From Allomuricauda sp. F6463D (lineage in GTDB: Bacteria; Bacteroidota; Bacteroidia; Flavobacteriales; Flavobacteriaceae), in NCBI RefSeq assembly GCF_023015965.1, contig NZ_JALKAN010000005.1, positions 5,165 through 69,164 of the forward strand: a stretch of DNA of 64,000 nt. The letters run 5' to 3'. This document shows positions 52,207-59,714 of the stretch, one piece after another. The translations under genes were made by a program, and so were the position numbers. The notes below the pieces were generated by a model. The model did not search any database, was not told the DNA's origin, and saw only the letters and a program-made list of their open reading frames with translations. Each line of letters opens with the position of its first letter. Within the stretch, counting starts at the first letter, position 1.

Positions 52207-53071
52207 AAACCTCAAATTCATTCTTCTTAATCGCTTCATCAATAATTTCAGTTTCCAGCCTCTTTACGTAATTCAAACGTCTCCTGTTCAATATCAATTG
52301 CTTTATATCTGGCTCTACATAATCAAAAGGAGCTGTTTCATTGACTTCCAGCACATTGGTCACCAAGCCCAAATATACTTCTAAGGAATCTTGTAACTCA
52401 AAAAATTGTGATTTTTTTAAGTGGGTTTCTTCATTTGCTCTGGTCAACGGAGGGATTTCCTCTATAACTCGTGCCGTACTTACCCAAATGGAGTCATTAA
52501 AATGTATTTTTTGGAACTGCACTGCTATCGAATCCAAATATTGTTTATCGGATTCGTCCCAATTTCTTATTCTATCCTCTACACCGTCCCTATCCAAAAA
52601 TTGATTGGACATCCCTACAAACCTAAGTTGTACCAATTTTTCATTCAGTTTGAAATTTTCTTTTTCACGTTCGTAAAATTCTTCAAGCTGATTTTTAGTA
52701 ACAGAGGTATCCCTGGATTGATTTACTAATGCCTCAATGTAAGCCCGGGTATATAAATCTGCACGGTAATCCGAAACCAAACGATCAAACTCTGCCAACT
52801 TTTCTTCGGGCAAGTTTATTTTAGATTTGGACAACAACAACTGCTTGGATGCCCAATTATTAATATAATTGGTCACAAAAACCGTACTGTCTTCCTCGGT
52901 CATGTCCTCCCTTATAAAGGTTGCGACATCTTCTTTATACAAATACGTATCACCTACCCGTGCAAGTGGTTCCTTTTTTTCATCCTGTTCAAACATTCCT
53001 TCACAAGAAGAAAATAGGATGGCCGCCAATGTATAAAATAGAAAAAGTGTATTTTTTTGGAGCTTAAGCAT
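52190..53071 (-). CDS. SurA/PpiC-type lipoprotein
   Basis: Lipoprotein of 293 residues with lipobox AAILFSSCEG (Cys near 23), taken from ATG 53071. Residues about 35-150 look like the helical N-terminal domain of SurA/PpiC chaperones (ARVGDTYLYKEDVATFI, YINNWASKQLLLSKSK). The rest is charged and helical, and no clear parvulin domain is visible. Position before the surA-like gene with overlap supports a joint role in outer-membrane protein folding. Confidence 0.8.
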   Translation of the reverse strand: MLKLQKNTLFLFYTLAAILFSSCEGMFEQDEKKEPLARVGDTYLYKEDVATFIREDMTEEDSTVFVTNYINNWASKQLLLSKSKINLPEEKLAEFDRLVSDYRADLYTRAYIEALVNQSRDTSVTKNQLEEFYEREKENFKLNEKLVQLRFVGMSNQFLDRDGVEDRIRNWDESDKQYLDSIAVQFQKIHFNDSIWVSTARVIEEIPPLTRANEETHLKKSQFFELQDSLEVYLGLVTNVLEVNETAPFDYVEPDIKQLILNRRRLNYVKRLETEIIDEAIKKNEFEVYEKQN

Positions 53072-53188
53072 CACGCAAAAATAACAATTACAAAATGCCC
53101 GACAAGAAGGTTCTAATTTCATTAACAGATTTTTTCGTTAGAACCAGATGGCAATAAATTGCTACATTAGTGCAAAACCAAACCAGAG

Positions 53189-53644
53189 ATGAAATACACT
53201 ACCGAAATAGTTGTGGATGTTCCTCGCGAAGAATTCATCAAAATAATGGATGATCCCGAAAACATGAAGCATTGGCAGGATGGGCTTATTGGCTACGAAC
53301 AACTGTCCAAAAATCCAAATCAAGATGGCGCCCAGATGAGCCTTAGTTACAAAATGGGCAAAGGTGAAATGAAGTTGGTGGAAACTATTATGAAAAGGAA
53401 TTTGCCACATGAATTATTTATGACCTACGACGCTAAAGGCGTACACAACATTCAAAGGAATTATTTTAAAGAAGAAGAAGGAGACAAGACACGTTGGGTA
53501 TCCGAATCAGAATTTCAATTCTCCGGATTTGGGATGAAGCTTATGGGTTTTTTTATGCCCGGAGCTTTTAAAAAACAATCATTAAAATATATGCAAGATT
53601 TTAAGACCTTTGCCGAAACGGGAAAATCCGTAACCGACTCATAA
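53189..53644 (+). CDS. SRPBCC family protein
   Basis: START-like fold of 151 residues without a signal peptide. The pattern MKYTTEIVVDVPREEFIKIMDDPENMKHWQDGL is the first strand and helices of polyketide cyclase/SRPBCC proteins, and the long C-terminal helix FKKQSLKYMQDFKTFAE closes the cavity. It probably binds a hydrophobic ligand, of unknown identity. It starts a two-gene unit with the next gene 4 nt downstream. Confidence 0.85.
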   Translation: MKYTTEIVVDVPREEFIKIMDDPENMKHWQDGLIGYEQLSKNPNQDGAQMSLSYKMGKGEMKLVETIMKRNLPHELFMTYDAKGVHNIQRNYFKEEEGDKTRWVSESEFQFSGFGMKLMGFFMPGAFKKQSLKYMQDFKTFAETGKSVTDS

Positions 53645-53648
53645 AACC

Positions 53649-53906
53649 ATGGAAAAACTTTTGGATAGAAAAATTAAGATTATTTGGGACTTTAGAGGAC
53701 CAAGTGCTGCACATATTGCCGAACACTACTTAAAACACCTTAAGGAATTTGTTGAAGTGGAAGAATTAAAATACGACCTTTCGGGGGTAGAGCATTTTAG
53801 CCCTAGCCATAGCACCGCATTTTTAGTCGTTGCCGAATTTGAACTCAAAGAGGTCAAAAATATTCTTAAACCACACAGGGGCGAGGTTTATACCGAAGAC
53901 GTTTAA
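53649..53906 (+). CDS. Small hypothetical cytoplasmic protein
   Basis: Protein of 85 residues with no family recognised. It is soluble and mixed alpha/beta, beginning KLLDRKIKIIWDFRGPSAAHIAEHYLKHL and ending ILKPHRGEVYTEDV. Immediate linkage to the SRPBCC gene (4 nt) suggests co-expression. Histidine-rich positions (AAHIAEHYLKH) may be of interest but no metal site can be claimed. Confidence 0.75.
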   Translation: MEKLLDRKIKIIWDFRGPSAAHIAEHYLKHLKEFVEVEELKYDLSGVEHFSPSHSTAFLVVAEFELKEVKNILKPHRGEVYTEDV

Positions 53907-54533
53907 ACAATCTACTCAGTATACAAATGGGATATTGCCTTAGGAAAAATTTCCTGCGGGCAACACCCCATTTTCCGGACTAGAGTCCTTAAAAATCATG
54001 AAACCTCAACCAACCATTTCTGATTGTATCTTCAAATTTTCGTTCGCCAATAGCACTTGATCAAAATCAATACCCTCAATGGGTTTTAAGCTTTGGCTAG
54101 CGGCATTCTATTTTTCTGACTAATTTCCAAGACAAACCTAACAAGCTTGCTGGTATGGCTTCATCAAAACCTTATTTCACTCCACTCTTTCAAATAAAAA
54201 GCACCACTCAATCAAAACACGAATCAAGGTAACACTGCATTTCAGTTTATTTTGATTTTAATCGGTTATCATTAGGGTTAATTTAAAAAGTAGCTATACT
54301 CATCCTTGCAACCAAAATTTAGACAACAACACTATTAGTCACCACTTTAAAAGTACTTATAACCAGCACCATAAACCATGATGAATATCAAATTCTAGAT
54401 TTATGTAATCCGAAGAAATCTACATTGATAGTCGACTTAAAAATATTTTTTACGTTTTGGACAATTAGGAATCAATCAAGATGAACACGGAATTTTAGAA
54501 ATTTCACTATCTCGGTACAGTCATTTTTCCATA
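53907..54533. other. 627 nt spacer with a possible gene relic
   Basis: No intact gene or RNA was recognised. On the minus strand, about 54010-54100 is open between stops and encodes LKPIEGIDFDQVLLANENLK, which looks protein-like, while fragments in other frames precede it. This could be a decayed gene. The same stretch contains TTGATCAAAATCAA (54057-54070), a perfect FNR-box match, but it lies inside the relic and no -7 element stands at the expected distance on either strand. Confidence 0.35.
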
Positions 54534-57200
54534 TTGGTTTTTATTTCAAAATACTTTCGTCATCTGCTTTTTTTTAGTGAAGTTAACCGTACCGAACCAT
54601 ACTTAAAAAGGCTTGTGAACCAGATTGAAGAGGATTTAGATTATCTTAAAAAACAGTTCCCCAACGGAACGGTTTCCTTATACGAAAAGGGACATATTAT
54701 TTGCAACATTCATAGCAAGGTGAACACATTTAGATGGTTGCTCAAAGGCTCTTTTGATTACTACACCACCTCGGTAGATCCCGACGAAGAAGTGCCTGTG
54801 TGTCAAATTTCCAAACCCTTGAGCACCTTGGGACTTAATGGATTGAACGAGCGTAAAAGGTATACCTACAAAATTACGGTTGCATCGGAACAGGCCACTT
54901 TTTATGAAGTTCCTATAGACCAAATGATCGACCATCTTGAAAACGAAAAGGACAACTTGACCATATGCAAAGTGGGGCGATCGCTTTACCATCAGTTGAG
55001 ACAAGCACTTTTACGACAGACTGATTTATTACAGGCTGCCCGCCATCGACCTTTACAAAAAGACCGTGAATTTTTTATAGGACCCAATACAGAACAAGCC
55101 GAAGTGGTCTCATTGATGCGCCGTTCTCCTTTCTTGGATTATTTTGACGATCAACAGCTATCCCAAATAGCTACCATTGCAGAGCGGCGCGAATACGAAC
55201 CCGACGAAGTGCTCTACATACAGGACAGGCTTACCAATGGCCTTTTTATCCTTATCAACGGTGAGGTAGCCATTAAACGATTGGAAGGTAATATTGAAAT
55301 TCGTCAACGCTCCATCAACAATCCAGGGTTTATTTTTGGTTGGTCCTGTTCAATGGGTGAAAAAGACATTTGCTCTGCGGTCACTACACAAAAAACCTCC
55401 ATATATTTTATCCATCAAAAAGACCTGTTGCAACTTTTGGACAAATGTTCGGTATTTGAACAAAACTTTTTCATGCGCCTGTTATGGCTGATGAGCAATC
55501 AAATCAATGCAGCCTTCGCTCGATACTTGGGCCTACTGGGAAAACATAATTTACAGGCGGTTCACCAACTGATCGAGAACAATAAATCAAGATTGGCACT
55601 ATCCTCTCCCTTTCATCAGGTCCAACATTTATTATCAAATACCAACACAAAACAATTAGGGTATGATGCCCTATCCAGGTTAATCGGAAGTGGCTCGCAT
55701 TTAGAGCGCCATATCGCTTCCTTAAGCTTGGAACTTCTGCAAGAGGATATGCAAGAGCTGAAATTTATAAAAGGGCTTCAGGACATCTACGAGACCGTTG
55801 CAGAACAAAAAAACAAATCGGAATCCGATGTCAGAAAGGCATGTGCATCGGCCACAAAGAAAGCTTTTGAAAACGTGCAACATCATATTGAAGGTATGGA
55901 TAAACTGCCAGAGAAAGGTGGCTGTATCTTTATTTACAATCACCTCTCCAACCACCCTTTTTATACCCTAAACAACAAGTTTCAGATAACGTTGGATTCA
56001 CATTATATCAGTGCGGGCATTTTGGACAATAAGTACAGTGACCCCGGTATACGAACGGTAAGAATTGGTCGCGGGCAGGAATATGGCCATCAAAACTATT
56101 ATAATAGCCTGGGACATATAAATGTGTACACCAAGGAATCTGAGGAGGTGGATAAAACAAGTAAAAAAGTAACACGCAGTATTTTTTATAGAACCGCTGC
56201 CGACTACTTGCAAAAGGGGCATAATTTGGTAATCAGCCCAGAGGGCACTTCTTATTCCACAGAAGAATCCCCAGGTCCATTTAAAATGGGCGTTTTTAAA
56301 CTGGCCCATTCCTTAGCCCCTGAACCCTATATAGTCCCCATAGTATTGGTCAATTTTGACCGACGTATTTCGGAAGGTTTTTTTTATTGCAAAATCCATA
56401 CACCTTTTAAATTGAGTGAAAAAATGTCCGAGTATGGAACCAAAGATTTGTACGATTTTGTAAAACAGTATCAAAAAACATATGCAAGATATGTTGAAGA
56501 AGCTAGGCAAAGGGCCGAGGAGCTTTATATGAAGCCTGCCACAACAGTACTGGAAGAGCCTCCAGAAATTTGGCGCAACGAGATCAACCGCCTTAAGAGG
56601 AGAATCATAAAATTGGAAGACCAGAACGATCTCATTATTTTCTACGGTAGTTCATCGGTTCGATTGTGGGTAGGGATGAAAAAAGACCTAAGCCCGTTCA
56701 ACGTGCTCAATTTAGGGTTCGGGGGATCAACCTACGCATGGTGCATCCATTATTTTGACGAAATCTTTAAAGAGGCCAAACCCGCTAAAATTGTGCTCTA
56801 TGCAGGAGAAAATGATTTGGCTCAAGGAAAATCTCCCCAAGAGGTTTTGAACGATTGTAATAGATTGGTACAGCTGATCTTTAAGAAATACCCTAAGGTG
56901 GAATTGGCCTTCATAAGCTTAAAACCCAGTTTGGAGCGTGAAGAAATGATACCTCAAATCATTGAGACCAACCTTCTAATGTCCAAATATGTGATTGGCG
57001 AACTCAACGCACAATTCATCAACGTTTTTGGCCAAATGATCACTGCGGACAACCGCCCAAAACCAGAACTATACATGTCCGATGGGCTTCACTTGAACAA
57101 AAAAGGATATGTAATATGGAGCGACGTCATAAAAACAGCCTTACTATCGGCGGAAAACCCCTTGGAAAAGGAAAATATTAATTTATTAGAGGAATCTTAA
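54534..57200 (+). CDS. cNMP-binding / acyltransferase / SGNH-hydrolase fusion protein
   Basis: An 888-residue chain with four recognisable parts. Two cyclic-nucleotide-binding-like domains come first (about 35-140 and 185-310, the second with GLFILINGEVAIKRLEG). A PlsC-like acyltransferase follows (about 455-640), with IYNHLSNHPFY near 468 and SPEGTSYS near 567. The C-terminus is an SGNH/GDSL hydrolase (about 700-870): GSSS (block I), NLGFGGSTY (II), YAGENDL (III) and DGLHLNKKGY (V), a complete catalytic set. The acyltransferase H-x4-D motif lacks the Asp at the usual place. The start is TTG 54534 (GTG 54615 is an alternative). A ligand-gated lipid-remodelling enzyme is a reasonable inference. 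Confidence 0.85.
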   Translation: MVFISKYFRHLLFFSEVNRTEPYLKRLVNQIEEDLDYLKKQFPNGTVSLYEKGHIICNIHSKVNTFRWLLKGSFDYYTTSVDPDEEVPVCQISKPLSTLGLNGLNERKRYTYKITVASEQATFYEVPIDQMIDHLENEKDNLTICKVGRSLYHQLRQALLRQTDLLQAARHRPLQKDREFFIGPNTEQAEVVSLMRRSPFLDYFDDQQLSQIATIAERREYEPDEVLYIQDRLTNGLFILINGEVAIKRLEGNIEIRQRSINNPGFIFGWSCSMGEKDICSAVTTQKTSIYFIHQKDLLQLLDKCSVFEQNFFMRLLWLMSNQINAAFARYLGLLGKHNLQAVHQLIENNKSRLALSSPFHQVQHLLSNTNTKQLGYDALSRLIGSGSHLERHIASLSLELLQEDMQELKFIKGLQDIYETVAEQKNKSESDVRKACASATKKAFENVQHHIEGMDKLPEKGGCIFIYNHLSNHPFYTLNNKFQITLDSHYISAGILDNKYSDPGIRTVRIGRGQEYGHQNYYNSLGHINVYTKESEEVDKTSKKVTRSIFYRTAADYLQKGHNLVISPEGTSYSTEESPGPFKMGVFKLAHSLAPEPYIVPIVLVNFDRRISEGFFYCKIHTPFKLSEKMSEYGTKDLYDFVKQYQKTYARYVEEARQRAEELYMKPATTVLEEPPEIWRNEINRLKRRIIKLEDQNDLIIFYGSSSVRLWVGMKKDLSPFNVLNLGFGGSTYAWCIHYFDEIFKEAKPAKIVLYAGENDLAQGKSPQEVLNDCNRLVQLIFKKYPKVELAFISLKPSLEREEMIPQIIETNLLMSKYVIGELNAQFINVFGQMITADNRPKPELYMSDGLHLNKKGYVIWSDVIKTALLSAENPLEKENINLLEES

Positions 57201-58498
57201 GCAGGTTCTCCAAACAAATCGTAATCCGAAGCATCTGTGATTTTAATAGTCACAAAATCCCCAATTTTCACATAGTGTTTTGTCGCATCAATAAGGACTT
57301 CGTTGTCTACATCGGGTGAATCAAATTCGGTTCGGCCCACAAAGTGGTTTCCTTCCTTTCTATCGATGATACAACGGAAAGTTTGTCCAATTTTAGTTTG
57401 ATTGAGCTCCCAAGAAATCTGTGATTGGATTTCCATAATAGCGTTCGCCCTTTCCTGTTTCACCTCTTCAGGGACATCGTCCTCCAAATTATAGGCATGC
57501 GTATTCTCCTCATGACTGTAGGTAAAGCAACCCAGACGTTCAAAACGCATTTCCTTGACCCATTGCTTCAAAGTTTCAAAATCCGCTTCCGTTTCCCCAG
57601 GGTATCCTACGATCAATGTAGTTCTTATGGCCATTTCGGGGACTGCCTCTCTAAAATCCTTCAACAACTTTGTGGTCTTGGCCTGGGTAGTACCGCGACG
57701 CATACTTTTTAGAATGGAATCTGAAATATGCTGTAACGGGATATCAATATAATTACAGATTTTGGGTTCGTTGCGCATTACTTCCAACACATCCATTGGA
57801 AAACCTGTTGGGAATGCATAGTGCAAACGGATCCACTCGATCCCTTCAACCTTGGCCAATGCTTTTAGCAATTCCGCCAAGTTTCGTTTTTTATAAAGAT
57901 CGAGCCCGTAATAGGTAAGGTCTTGGGCTATTAAAATAAGCTCTTTTACCCCGTTGGCTGCCAGTTTTTCAGCTTCGGCAACTAGCTCTTCTATAGGCGT
58001 GCTCTTATGTTTACCACGCATCAAAGGGATGGCGCAAAACGAACATGGTCTATCACAACCTTCTGCAATTTTTAGGTAAGCATAGTTCTTAGGCGTGGTC
58101 GTCAACCGTTCCCCAATCAATTCATGTTTATAATCCGCACCAAGCGCTTTTAATAAATTGGGAAGGTCGCTTGTACCAAAATAGGCATCCACATTGGGAA
58201 TTTCCTTCTCCAAATCCGGTTTGTACCGTTCACTCAAACATCCTGTCACAAAAACCTTGTCCACATCACCAGCTTCCTTGCGCTGCACATAATCCAAAAT
58301 GGTATTAACACTTTCCTCCTTTGCATTGGCAATAAATCCACAGGTATTGATCACAACAACATTGCCTTCCTCTTCATGCGCCACCTCTTTATTGTTGGCA
58401 CGCAGTTGCCCCATCAATACTTCCGAGTCATAAACATTTTTGCTACAACCCAAGGTTACCACATTTATTTTATTCTTTTTAAGCGATTTTGTGCGCAT
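57197..58498 (-). CDS. rimO: Ribosomal protein S12 methylthiotransferase RimO
   Basis: Radical SAM enzyme of 433 residues that methylthiolates Asp-88/89 of protein S12. The N-terminal UPF0004 domain holds TLGCSKNVYDSE, VINTCGFI and VTGCLSERY, the three cysteines for the second cluster. The radical SAM motif is GCDRPCSFCAIP (CxxxCxxC), with YIDIPLQHIS later; a TRAM domain ends the chain. The start at 58498 fits the family length. A TATTTTTG -7 element lies at 58518-58525. Its stop overlaps that of the convergent fusion gene in TTAA. Confidence 0.96.
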   Translation of the reverse strand: MRTKSLKKNKINVVTLGCSKNVYDSEVLMGQLRANNKEVAHEEEGNVVVINTCGFIANAKEESVNTILDYVQRKEAGDVDKVFVTGCLSERYKPDLEKEIPNVDAYFGTSDLPNLLKALGADYKHELIGERLTTTPKNYAYLKIAEGCDRPCSFCAIPLMRGKHKSTPIEELVAEAEKLAANGVKELILIAQDLTYYGLDLYKKRNLAELLKALAKVEGIEWIRLHYAFPTGFPMDVLEVMRNEPKICNYIDIPLQHISDSILKSMRRGTTQAKTTKLLKDFREAVPEMAIRTTLIVGYPGETEADFETLKQWVKEMRFERLGCFTYSHEENTHAYNLEDDVPEEVKQERANAIMEIQSQISWELNQTKIGQTFRCIIDRKEGNHFVGRTEFDSPDVDNEVLIDATKHYVKIGDFVTIKITDASDYDLFGEPA

Positions 58499-58625
58499 AG
58501 TTCCGTTTAATGGAGTGCAAAAATACAATAACACAAGGCATTACATCGAATTGACCGCATATTTTTAGTGCTTCTTCGTTAAACCAATAGTCCCTATGAA
58601 AGTCAAAAGTCTAAATTTTAGCTTT

Positions 58626-59714
58626 ATGAAGCATACTTCAATATCATTTCTAGTAGCCTCATTAATTATAATTGGTTGTAGTTCAGATGAAGTGATTACA
58701 GACCCTACTCCAGAACCAGAAGAAAGTCAATTGTATTTTCCTCCTTCAGGTTCGGCGGAATGGGAAACAGTGTCGCCTTCCGATTTATCTTGGAATGCCG
58801 ATGCGGAACAAGAGCTTAAAGATTTATTGGAAGAGAAATCCACAAAAGCGTTCATCATTTTAAAAGATGGAAAAATAGTTGTGGAATGGTATTTTGATGA
58901 ACACGACCAAAACACCAGTTGGTATTGGGCTTCTGCTGGCAAAACATTAACCGCTTTTACGGTTGGATTGGCCCAAGAAGAAGGGTTGCTGGATACCGAA
59001 GATAAATCATCCGATTATTTAGGAGAGGGATGGACCGGTTTAACTACTGAAAAGGAAAACTTGATCACCCTTTGGCACCAATTGACAATGACCAGCGGAT
59101 TAGATGATGAAGATTTAGATTGTGTTACTCCAGATTGCCTTACCTATGTGGCAGATGCCGGTACACGATGGGCATACCACAATGGTCCGTATACGCTGTT
59201 ACAAAGTGTTGTGGCCAATGCCGCGGAAATGGAATGGAAAGACTACTTCAATTCAAATTTGAGGGATAAAATAGGAATGGACGGTTTTTGGTTTTCCACA
59301 AGCGGCACCAATAATGTATATTTCAGCACAGCACGAAGCATGGCGAGGTTTGGTCTTTTGAACTTGAACAACGGCGTTTGGGACGGCGAAACTATATTAA
59401 GTGATACGGAGTACTTATCCGACATGAAGAACACTTCGCAAAACCTGAACAAATCCTATGGATATTTATGGTGGTTGAACGGTAAGGACAGTTATCGTAT
59501 GCCCAGTCTTCAAATTGAGTTTGATGGTATGATGATTCCGAATGCCCCAAGCGATTTATATGCAGGTTTGGGCAAAAACGATCAGAAACTCTACATTATA
59601 CCCAGCCAAAACCTAGTAGTGCTACGAATGGGGGTAGATGCCGGAGAAAGTTCTCTTGGACTCTCGTCCTTTGACAATCAGCTTTGGGAAAAATTAAGTA
59701 CCTATATTGATTAA
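58626..59714 (+). CDS. Serine hydrolase lipoprotein (class C beta-lactamase family)
   Basis: Lipoprotein of 362 residues; lipobox ASLIIIGCSSD (Cys near 19). The active-site motif S-x-x-K is SAGKT (about 103-106), the Tyr motif is YHN in RWAYHNGPYTLLQ, and the third motif is replaced by a Gly-rich C-terminal part. Members include esterases, D-amino acid peptidases and PBP4*-like proteins. True beta-lactamase activity is unlikely. An in-frame ATG 30 nt upstream exists. The stop codon overlaps that of the convergent amidase gene in TTAA. Confidence 0.9.
   Translation: MKHTSISFLVASLIIIGCSSDEVITDPTPEPEESQLYFPPSGSAEWETVSPSDLSWNADAEQELKDLLEEKSTKAFIILKDGKIVVEWYFDEHDQNTSWYWASAGKTLTAFTVGLAQEEGLLDTEDKSSDYLGEGWTGLTTEKENLITLWHQLTMTSGLDDEDLDCVTPDCLTYVADAGTRWAYHNGPYTLLQSVVANAAEMEWKDYFNSNLRDKIGMDGFWFSTSGTNNVYFSTARSMARFGLLNLNNGVWDGETILSDTEYLSDMKNTSQNLNKSYGYLWWLNGKDSYRMPSLQIEFDGMMIPNAPSDLYAGLGKNDQKLYIIPSQNLVVLRMGVDAGESSLGLSSFDNQLWEKLSTYID

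Follow-up and report, generated by a model that had tools for sequence, protein, structure and literature searches.

The gene at positions 54615..57200 (+) of the window, the whole stretch of 64,000 nucleotides from the marine flavobacterium Allomuricauda sp. F6463D that was analysed, encodes an intact protein of 861 residues. It belongs to a family of which little is known and which occurs in several groups of bacteria; the core of this family is a PlsC-fold acyltransferase (AT) together with an SGNH hydrolase. In the F6463D protein, these two domains are preceded by a pair of cNMP-binding-like domains (cNBDs). We tentatively propose, at somewhat less than an even chance, that the protein is a trehalose-linked acyl transferase/esterase; its substrate, reaction and sensor ligand are what we infer from the observations described below.

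Reading frame and domain organization

The frame from 54534 to 57200 (+) was open throughout in the open-reading-frame check. The initial annotation had started the protein at the TTG at 54534, which lies 27 codons upstream of the GTG at 54615 (861 aa plus stop). Six congeneric copies (L002, L003, L004, L005, L006 and L022) gave no support to this start: in each of them the frame opens just 2-12 codons ahead of the counterpart of the GTG, with no earlier start codon. The TTG start is thus probably wrong and was rejected in favour of the better placed, conserved GTG. Residue numbers refer to the 861-residue protein, except for Pfam limits, which follow the earlier 888-residue numbering.

A split frame or a pseudogene was also rejected for the F6463D gene. 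The frame is intact, and in a search of 59 relatives full-length matches were found in six genomes, its own and five others of the genus, whose copies are 74-86% identical. Moreover, 52 of the 78 loci fetched from named genomes carry intact fusions. The claim that two cNMP-binding domains, an acyltransferase and an SGNH hydrolase share one chain was confirmed by hmmscan against Pfam, with all matches above their cut-offs: two cNMP_binding stretches (PF00027), the best at 218-304 (E 1.7e-13, 50.8 bits versus a cut-off of 27.5), Acyltransferase (PF01553) at 451-605 (E 8.8e-8) and Lipase_GDSL_2 at 710-859 (E 9.3e-10). The features are listed in Table 1.

Table 1. Features of the F6463D gene and its product, in window coordinates.
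Feature	Position	Strand	Residues	Basis
First cNMP-binding-like domain	54648..54950	+	~12-112	Pfam, model strands, column counts; limits by eye
Second cNMP-binding-like domain	55185..55445	+	191-277	Pfam, column counts, Foldseek
Mostly helical linker	55449..55760	+	279-382	Alignment and model; missing from short forms
PlsC/LPLAT-fold acyltransferase (AT) domain	55761..56495	+	383-627	Pfam, alignment, AT model, structure matches
Catalytic-type His, motif I (YNH)	55941..55943	+	443	Invariant in 42 sequences
Asp at His+18 (FQITLDSH)	55995..55997	+	461	Invariant in 42 sequences; candidate displaced acid
Motif III PEG	56238..56246	+	542-544	Invariant in 42 sequences
SGNH/GDSL domain	56571..57149	+	653-845	Pfam and structure matches
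SGNH nucleophile position, Ser (YGSSS)	56652..56654	+	680	Alignment, structure match
SGNH block V, Asp-Gly-Leu-His	57081..57092	+	823-826	Alignment, structure match

The full-length structure model was middling (pLDDT 77.4, pTM 0.55), so no claim is made on the packing of the domains. The full-chain VIA structure-match table was filled mostly by the SGNH part, and the AT was afterwards folded alone.

The gene had been described as isolated, and this fits the F6463D locus. When the neighbours at 35 loci were clustered, no cluster apart from the family itself occurred in more than 4 loci, and the shared clusters came mostly from a single genus or group; the context of the long form therefore yields no functional lead. 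No RNA element reached the gathering threshold in the scanned region from 53000 to 58700. The ~970 bp upstream of the gene (53645-54614) hold no ORF of at least 100 aa. The matching place is occupied by two divergent genes in L051 and L058, encoding in L051 a GFO_IDH_MocA oxidoreductase and a DoxX-type protein, and the F6463D lineage may have lost both. Downstream, a convergent gene of 445 aa (57197-58534, minus strand), MiaB/RimO-like by eye, overlaps the last four bases of the F6463D gene.

Catalytic and sensor domains

The AT matches the LPLAT/PF01553 profile and fold, and its best solved-structure relatives are PlsC and GPATs, but it does not carry the HX4D motif. The initial annotation had pointed out the absent motif-I Asp, and the comparison bears it out as a family trait: none of the 81 counted members has Asp at His+5, while all 81 have one at His+18. 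The count omitted at least seven fetched members (L062, L064, L065, L080, L122, L123 and L127), in which the same His+18 spacing was seen by eye. The motif-I His, Asp461 and the PEG of motif III were invariant in 42 aligned sequences; the alignments of 42 and, for the SGNH domain, 24 sequences consist of chosen rows, and as relatives were searched with the peptides FQITLDSH and YGSS[ST][IV]RLW, this conservation is partly by construction.

The model of the AT alone was confident (pLDDT 94.7) and places Asp461 as the second residue of helix 78-92, the next long helix after motif I. This position and its invariance make Asp461 a likely candidate for the displaced acid of an HX17D His-Asp dyad. 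A weak profile match with the PlsC structure 5kym (E 0.004 over the whole chain, 0.64 over the motif-I stretch) aligned His443 to its NH, and a global hhalign against two PlsC-type rows put Asp461 on their motif-I Asp with low confidence. The family thus shares the fold of PlsC/LPLAT acyltransferases (PF01553; 5kym) and differs from them by the invariant Asp at His+18 with none at His+5; unlike them, its AT has an SGNH partner, either on its own chain or encoded by an adjacent gene. The possibility of a dead acyltransferase is weakened, since with an invariant Asp at His+18 the missing His+5 Asp does not look like a loss of activity.

In the SGNH domain, Ser680, Gly703/704, Asn733, Asp823 and His826 were invariant in the 24 aligned sequences, in agreement with the complete catalytic set noted initially. 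Both the Ser, Gly, Asn and His blocks and the fold of SGNH/GDSL enzymes are present, and Ser680 superposes on the Ser in a G-N-S stretch of 6njc. The closest structure matches are sialate O-acetylesterases, which are sugar-ester enzymes; PAF acetylhydrolase and lysophospholipase-type enzymes are also among the relatives.

The top Foldseek matches of the sensor region are tandem PKA/PKG regulatory domains. The canonical cNMP pocket has a Glu and an Arg in its phosphate-binding cassette, a pair that was not found here. Among the 65 long proteins, the pocket Glu is replaced in both domains wherever a row has a letter (64; L085 is disrupted), by Trp, Leu, Ile, Val or Met in domain 1 (G-L in F6463D) and by Trp or Ser in domain 2 (Trp in F6463D). 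Arg82 of domain 1 is kept in 64/64 rows with a letter. In domain 2 the matching column lacks Arg, and four rows, including the two Marinomonas rows printed, have one a column off. With the pocket Glu missing from both domains, ordinary cAMP/cGMP binding is doubtful.

The individual folds of the protein are already known, and several known enzymes combine some of them. The PNPLA6/7 (NTE) lysophospholipases also bear cNMP-type domains on a lipid hydrolase but, unlike the F6463D protein, they have a patatin catalytic domain and a membrane anchor and are not known to carry an acyltransferase; no patatin domain was matched by Pfam in the F6463D protein at E up to 1. AT3-SGNH (OafA-type) proteins likewise carry an acyltransferase and an SGNH domain on one chain, but the former is an AT3 domain, integral to the membrane and not of the PlsC fold, and they are not known to carry a cNBD. 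No match to the membrane acyltransferase-3 domain was found by Pfam at E up to 1. A further comparison is OctT (Rv2418c), which is not known to have an LPLAT partner on its chain. In the part of its description available, OctT is an SGNH-fold sugar octanoyltransferase that acylates glucosylglycerate and diglucosylglycerate, transfer to trehalose itself being called insignificant (PMC4555173); it shares the SGNH catalytic set with the F6463D protein, and shows that compatible-solute sugars can be acylated by an enzyme of the SGNH fold. Mycobacterial PatA is described as a mannose 6-O-acyltransferase with partner residue E200, and the available part of that description presents it without the SGNH domain or cNBD that are both present in the F6463D protein (PMC4792965).

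Fused, split and sensorless relatives and their link to trehalose synthesis

The initial annotation had presented the architecture as novel. It is not unique, since fused, split and sensorless relatives were found in named genomes, and the fusion is a conserved kind; at the same time, no description of the architecture was found among the titles and abstract beginnings of the literature covered, which consists of open-access papers other than preprints. The named-genome scan took the best 80 of 407 confirmed relatives, corresponding to 78 loci. The intact fusions among these occur in Muricauda/Allomuricauda/Flagellimonas, Maribacter, Zobellia, Kriegella, Leeuwenhoekiella and Reichenbachiella, as well as in Dadabacteria bins, one delta bin, Marinomonas and a few others. 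In 16/78 loci the protein is split into adjacent genes for cNBD-cNBD-AT and SGNH (L111 being cut by a contig end), in Marinoscillum, Sphingobacterium, other Bacteroidota, one delta bin and one bin titled Rickettsiales. That the split pairs are kept adjacent supports a joint action of AT and SGNH. AT-SGNH without cNBDs was found in 9/78 loci, and one locus (L085, Maribacter litopenaei) holds a disrupted long-form copy.

Of 397 genomes drawn from the family, 10 had the long form; another 11 carried a short AT-SGNH form (~460 residues), interrupted in one of them (L139 of G078). This copy and that of L085 suggest that some strains have recently lost the gene. Among 296 genomes drawn from the phylum, only that of F6463D matched at E 1e-12; the 21 genomes listed were all of the same family, and this draw has little bearing on other classes. 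Plasmid matches came from 52 records, of which a single one (Persicobacter, 1.58 Mb) spans 80% or more of the query, as two pieces; the other nine of the ten matches listed are confined to the SGNH part.

In a tree of the AT (83 rows, L122 and L127 being absent), the 17 short forms included cluster together (100/99). The Marinomonas copies (L115, L117, L118 and L119) are gammaproteobacterial members on a branch of length 1.43, and the tool warns that some long branches meet. The copy in the bin titled Rickettsiales (L110) groups with Marinoscillum (98/81) and probably represents a mis-binned contig.

In 9 of 20 short-form loci, the AT-SGNH gene directly follows that for a bifunctional trehalose-6-phosphate synthase/phosphatase (OtsAB), at a distance of -17 to +8 bp, and in the same nine a divergent GH15 trehalase-like gene lies on the other side of otsAB; the linkage is missing in the remaining 11. 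The neighbours were identified in L128 by Pfam and NCBIfam, OtsAB scoring 970 bits against a cut-off of 634 and the GH15 protein being most like archaeal trehalases, under their NCBIfam cut-offs. Compared with L128, the other eight copies are 59-63% identical in OtsAB and 65-72% in GH15. Identity among the nine AT-SGNH proteins is 42-86%, which implies that the gene order was kept over a long divergence. The F6463D gene is not next to otsAB, which lies elsewhere in the genome, and no otsAB was found beside long-form loci within the flanks examined.

The co-occurrence of OtsAB with the family was counted at E 1e-60 in the family and phylum draws, in comparisons whose carrier sets overlap, some genomes being in more than one, and whose p values are uncorrected for phylogeny. 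In the family draw, OtsAB was found in 20/21 carriers (10/10 long-form and 10/11 short-form genomes) versus 111/376 others (p 1.2e-9), or 13/13 versus 68/224 when counted by genus (p 4.4e-7), and in a phylum draw around a Dadabacterium in 13/14 carriers versus 13/43 others (p 4.3e-5). Catalase, the single control gene in the same 397 genomes, had no such association (3/21 versus 77/376, p 0.78). Through named loci (39 of the 78, leaving out the Flavobacteriaceae long-form loci L051-L087, L089 and L090), OtsAB was found at E 1e-10 in 33/39 carrier genomes; the six without a match at this threshold are four Marinomonas, one delta bin and the genome of L121. Some of these absences may come from incomplete genomes, but hardly those in all four Marinomonas. 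As OtsAB is also common in non-carriers, it would be necessary at most. The two Marinomonas copies printed (L115 and L119) have FRFSMDAQF after motif I, versus the otherwise constant FQITLDSHF. The changed stretch and the missing OtsAB would fit a role of this stretch in reading the acceptor, perhaps with a different substrate in Marinomonas.

Possible functions of the protein

If the protein is trehalose-linked, the AT would use acyl-CoA or acyl-ACP as donor and acylate a sugar hydroxyl, either on trehalose or on a product derived from it, most likely in the cytosol or at the inner membrane face. The SGNH domain would then take the acyl group off again or, like OctT, re-transfer it. The tandem cNBDs with their altered pockets could tune this cycle by binding a ligand other than ordinary cAMP/cGMP, or by working as a folded switch or a module for dimerisation. 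Under osmotic or desiccation stress, such a cycle would link the trehalose pool of the cell with acylated sugars or glycolipids. In its full form, this scheme is decidedly speculative and on the unlikely side: marine Bacteroidota and Dadabacteria would acylate and deacylate trehalose, or a trehalose glycolipid, in a ligand-controlled cycle run by an HX17D AT, with repurposed cNMP-type sensors that bind a non-cyclic-nucleotide ligand. No trehalose-linked acyltransferase of Bacteroidota or marine Bacteroidota was found among the literature matches listed (titles and abstract beginnings).

The main rival is the remodelling of membrane phospholipids, in which the SGNH domain would deacylate a phospholipid or lysophospholipid and the AT reacylate it, the trehalose genes merely sharing a response to osmotic or cold stress. 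Such a shared regulon could account for both the operon and the co-occurrence, and the PlsC and GPAT relatives of the AT and the PAF acetylhydrolase and lysophospholipase-type relatives of the SGNH domain agree with it. However, the closest SGNH matches are the sialate O-acetylesterases, motif I is rebuilt relative to PlsC, no neighbour cluster recurs in more than 4/35 loci, and none of the 23 Pfam-scanned neighbours, a minority of all neighbours, is a phospholipid-synthesis gene. We regard this explanation as rather unlikely. The lipid remodelling first suggested, with removal and addition of acyl chains, is possible, but the context of the sensorless relatives and the co-occurrence point to trehalose.

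The association of AT and SGNH, fused or adjacent in the fused, split and short classes, would suit a net acyltransferase, with the SGNH domain delivering to the final acceptor the acyl group that the AT has loaded or handed over, as proposed for AT3-SGNH proteins and as OctT does. OctT offers a precedent in the available part of its description (PMC4555173). This two-step scheme seems improbable: the acyltransferase of AT3-SGNH proteins is an integral membrane domain, and none was matched in the F6463D protein. Still less probable is a lipid enzyme gated by cAMP or cGMP, the allosteric control originally envisaged. The two cNMP_binding stretches behind that model stand, and so does their likeness to tandem PKA/PKG regulatory domains; in addition, the only PF00211 (class III cyclase) match in the genome is a partial one (L159, C19:64533-64850), a 146-aa open frame covering positions 75-178 of the 183-position profile. 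Nevertheless, the model is weakened by the loss of the pocket Glu from both domains in all rows with a letter and by an Arg kept in domain 1 and not in domain 2, apart from the four rows with Arg one column away.

To return to the trehalose-linked proposal, acyl-trehalose metabolism is well known in mycobacteria. A sensor-controlled making and breaking of trehalose esters, if true, would tie a major osmoprotectant to the envelope or to an acyl store. The family is also a clean example of how an acyltransferase motif can be rebuilt (HX17D) and of cNMP-type domains with altered pockets, and since it has fused, split and sensorless members, each part can be tested directly for its role.
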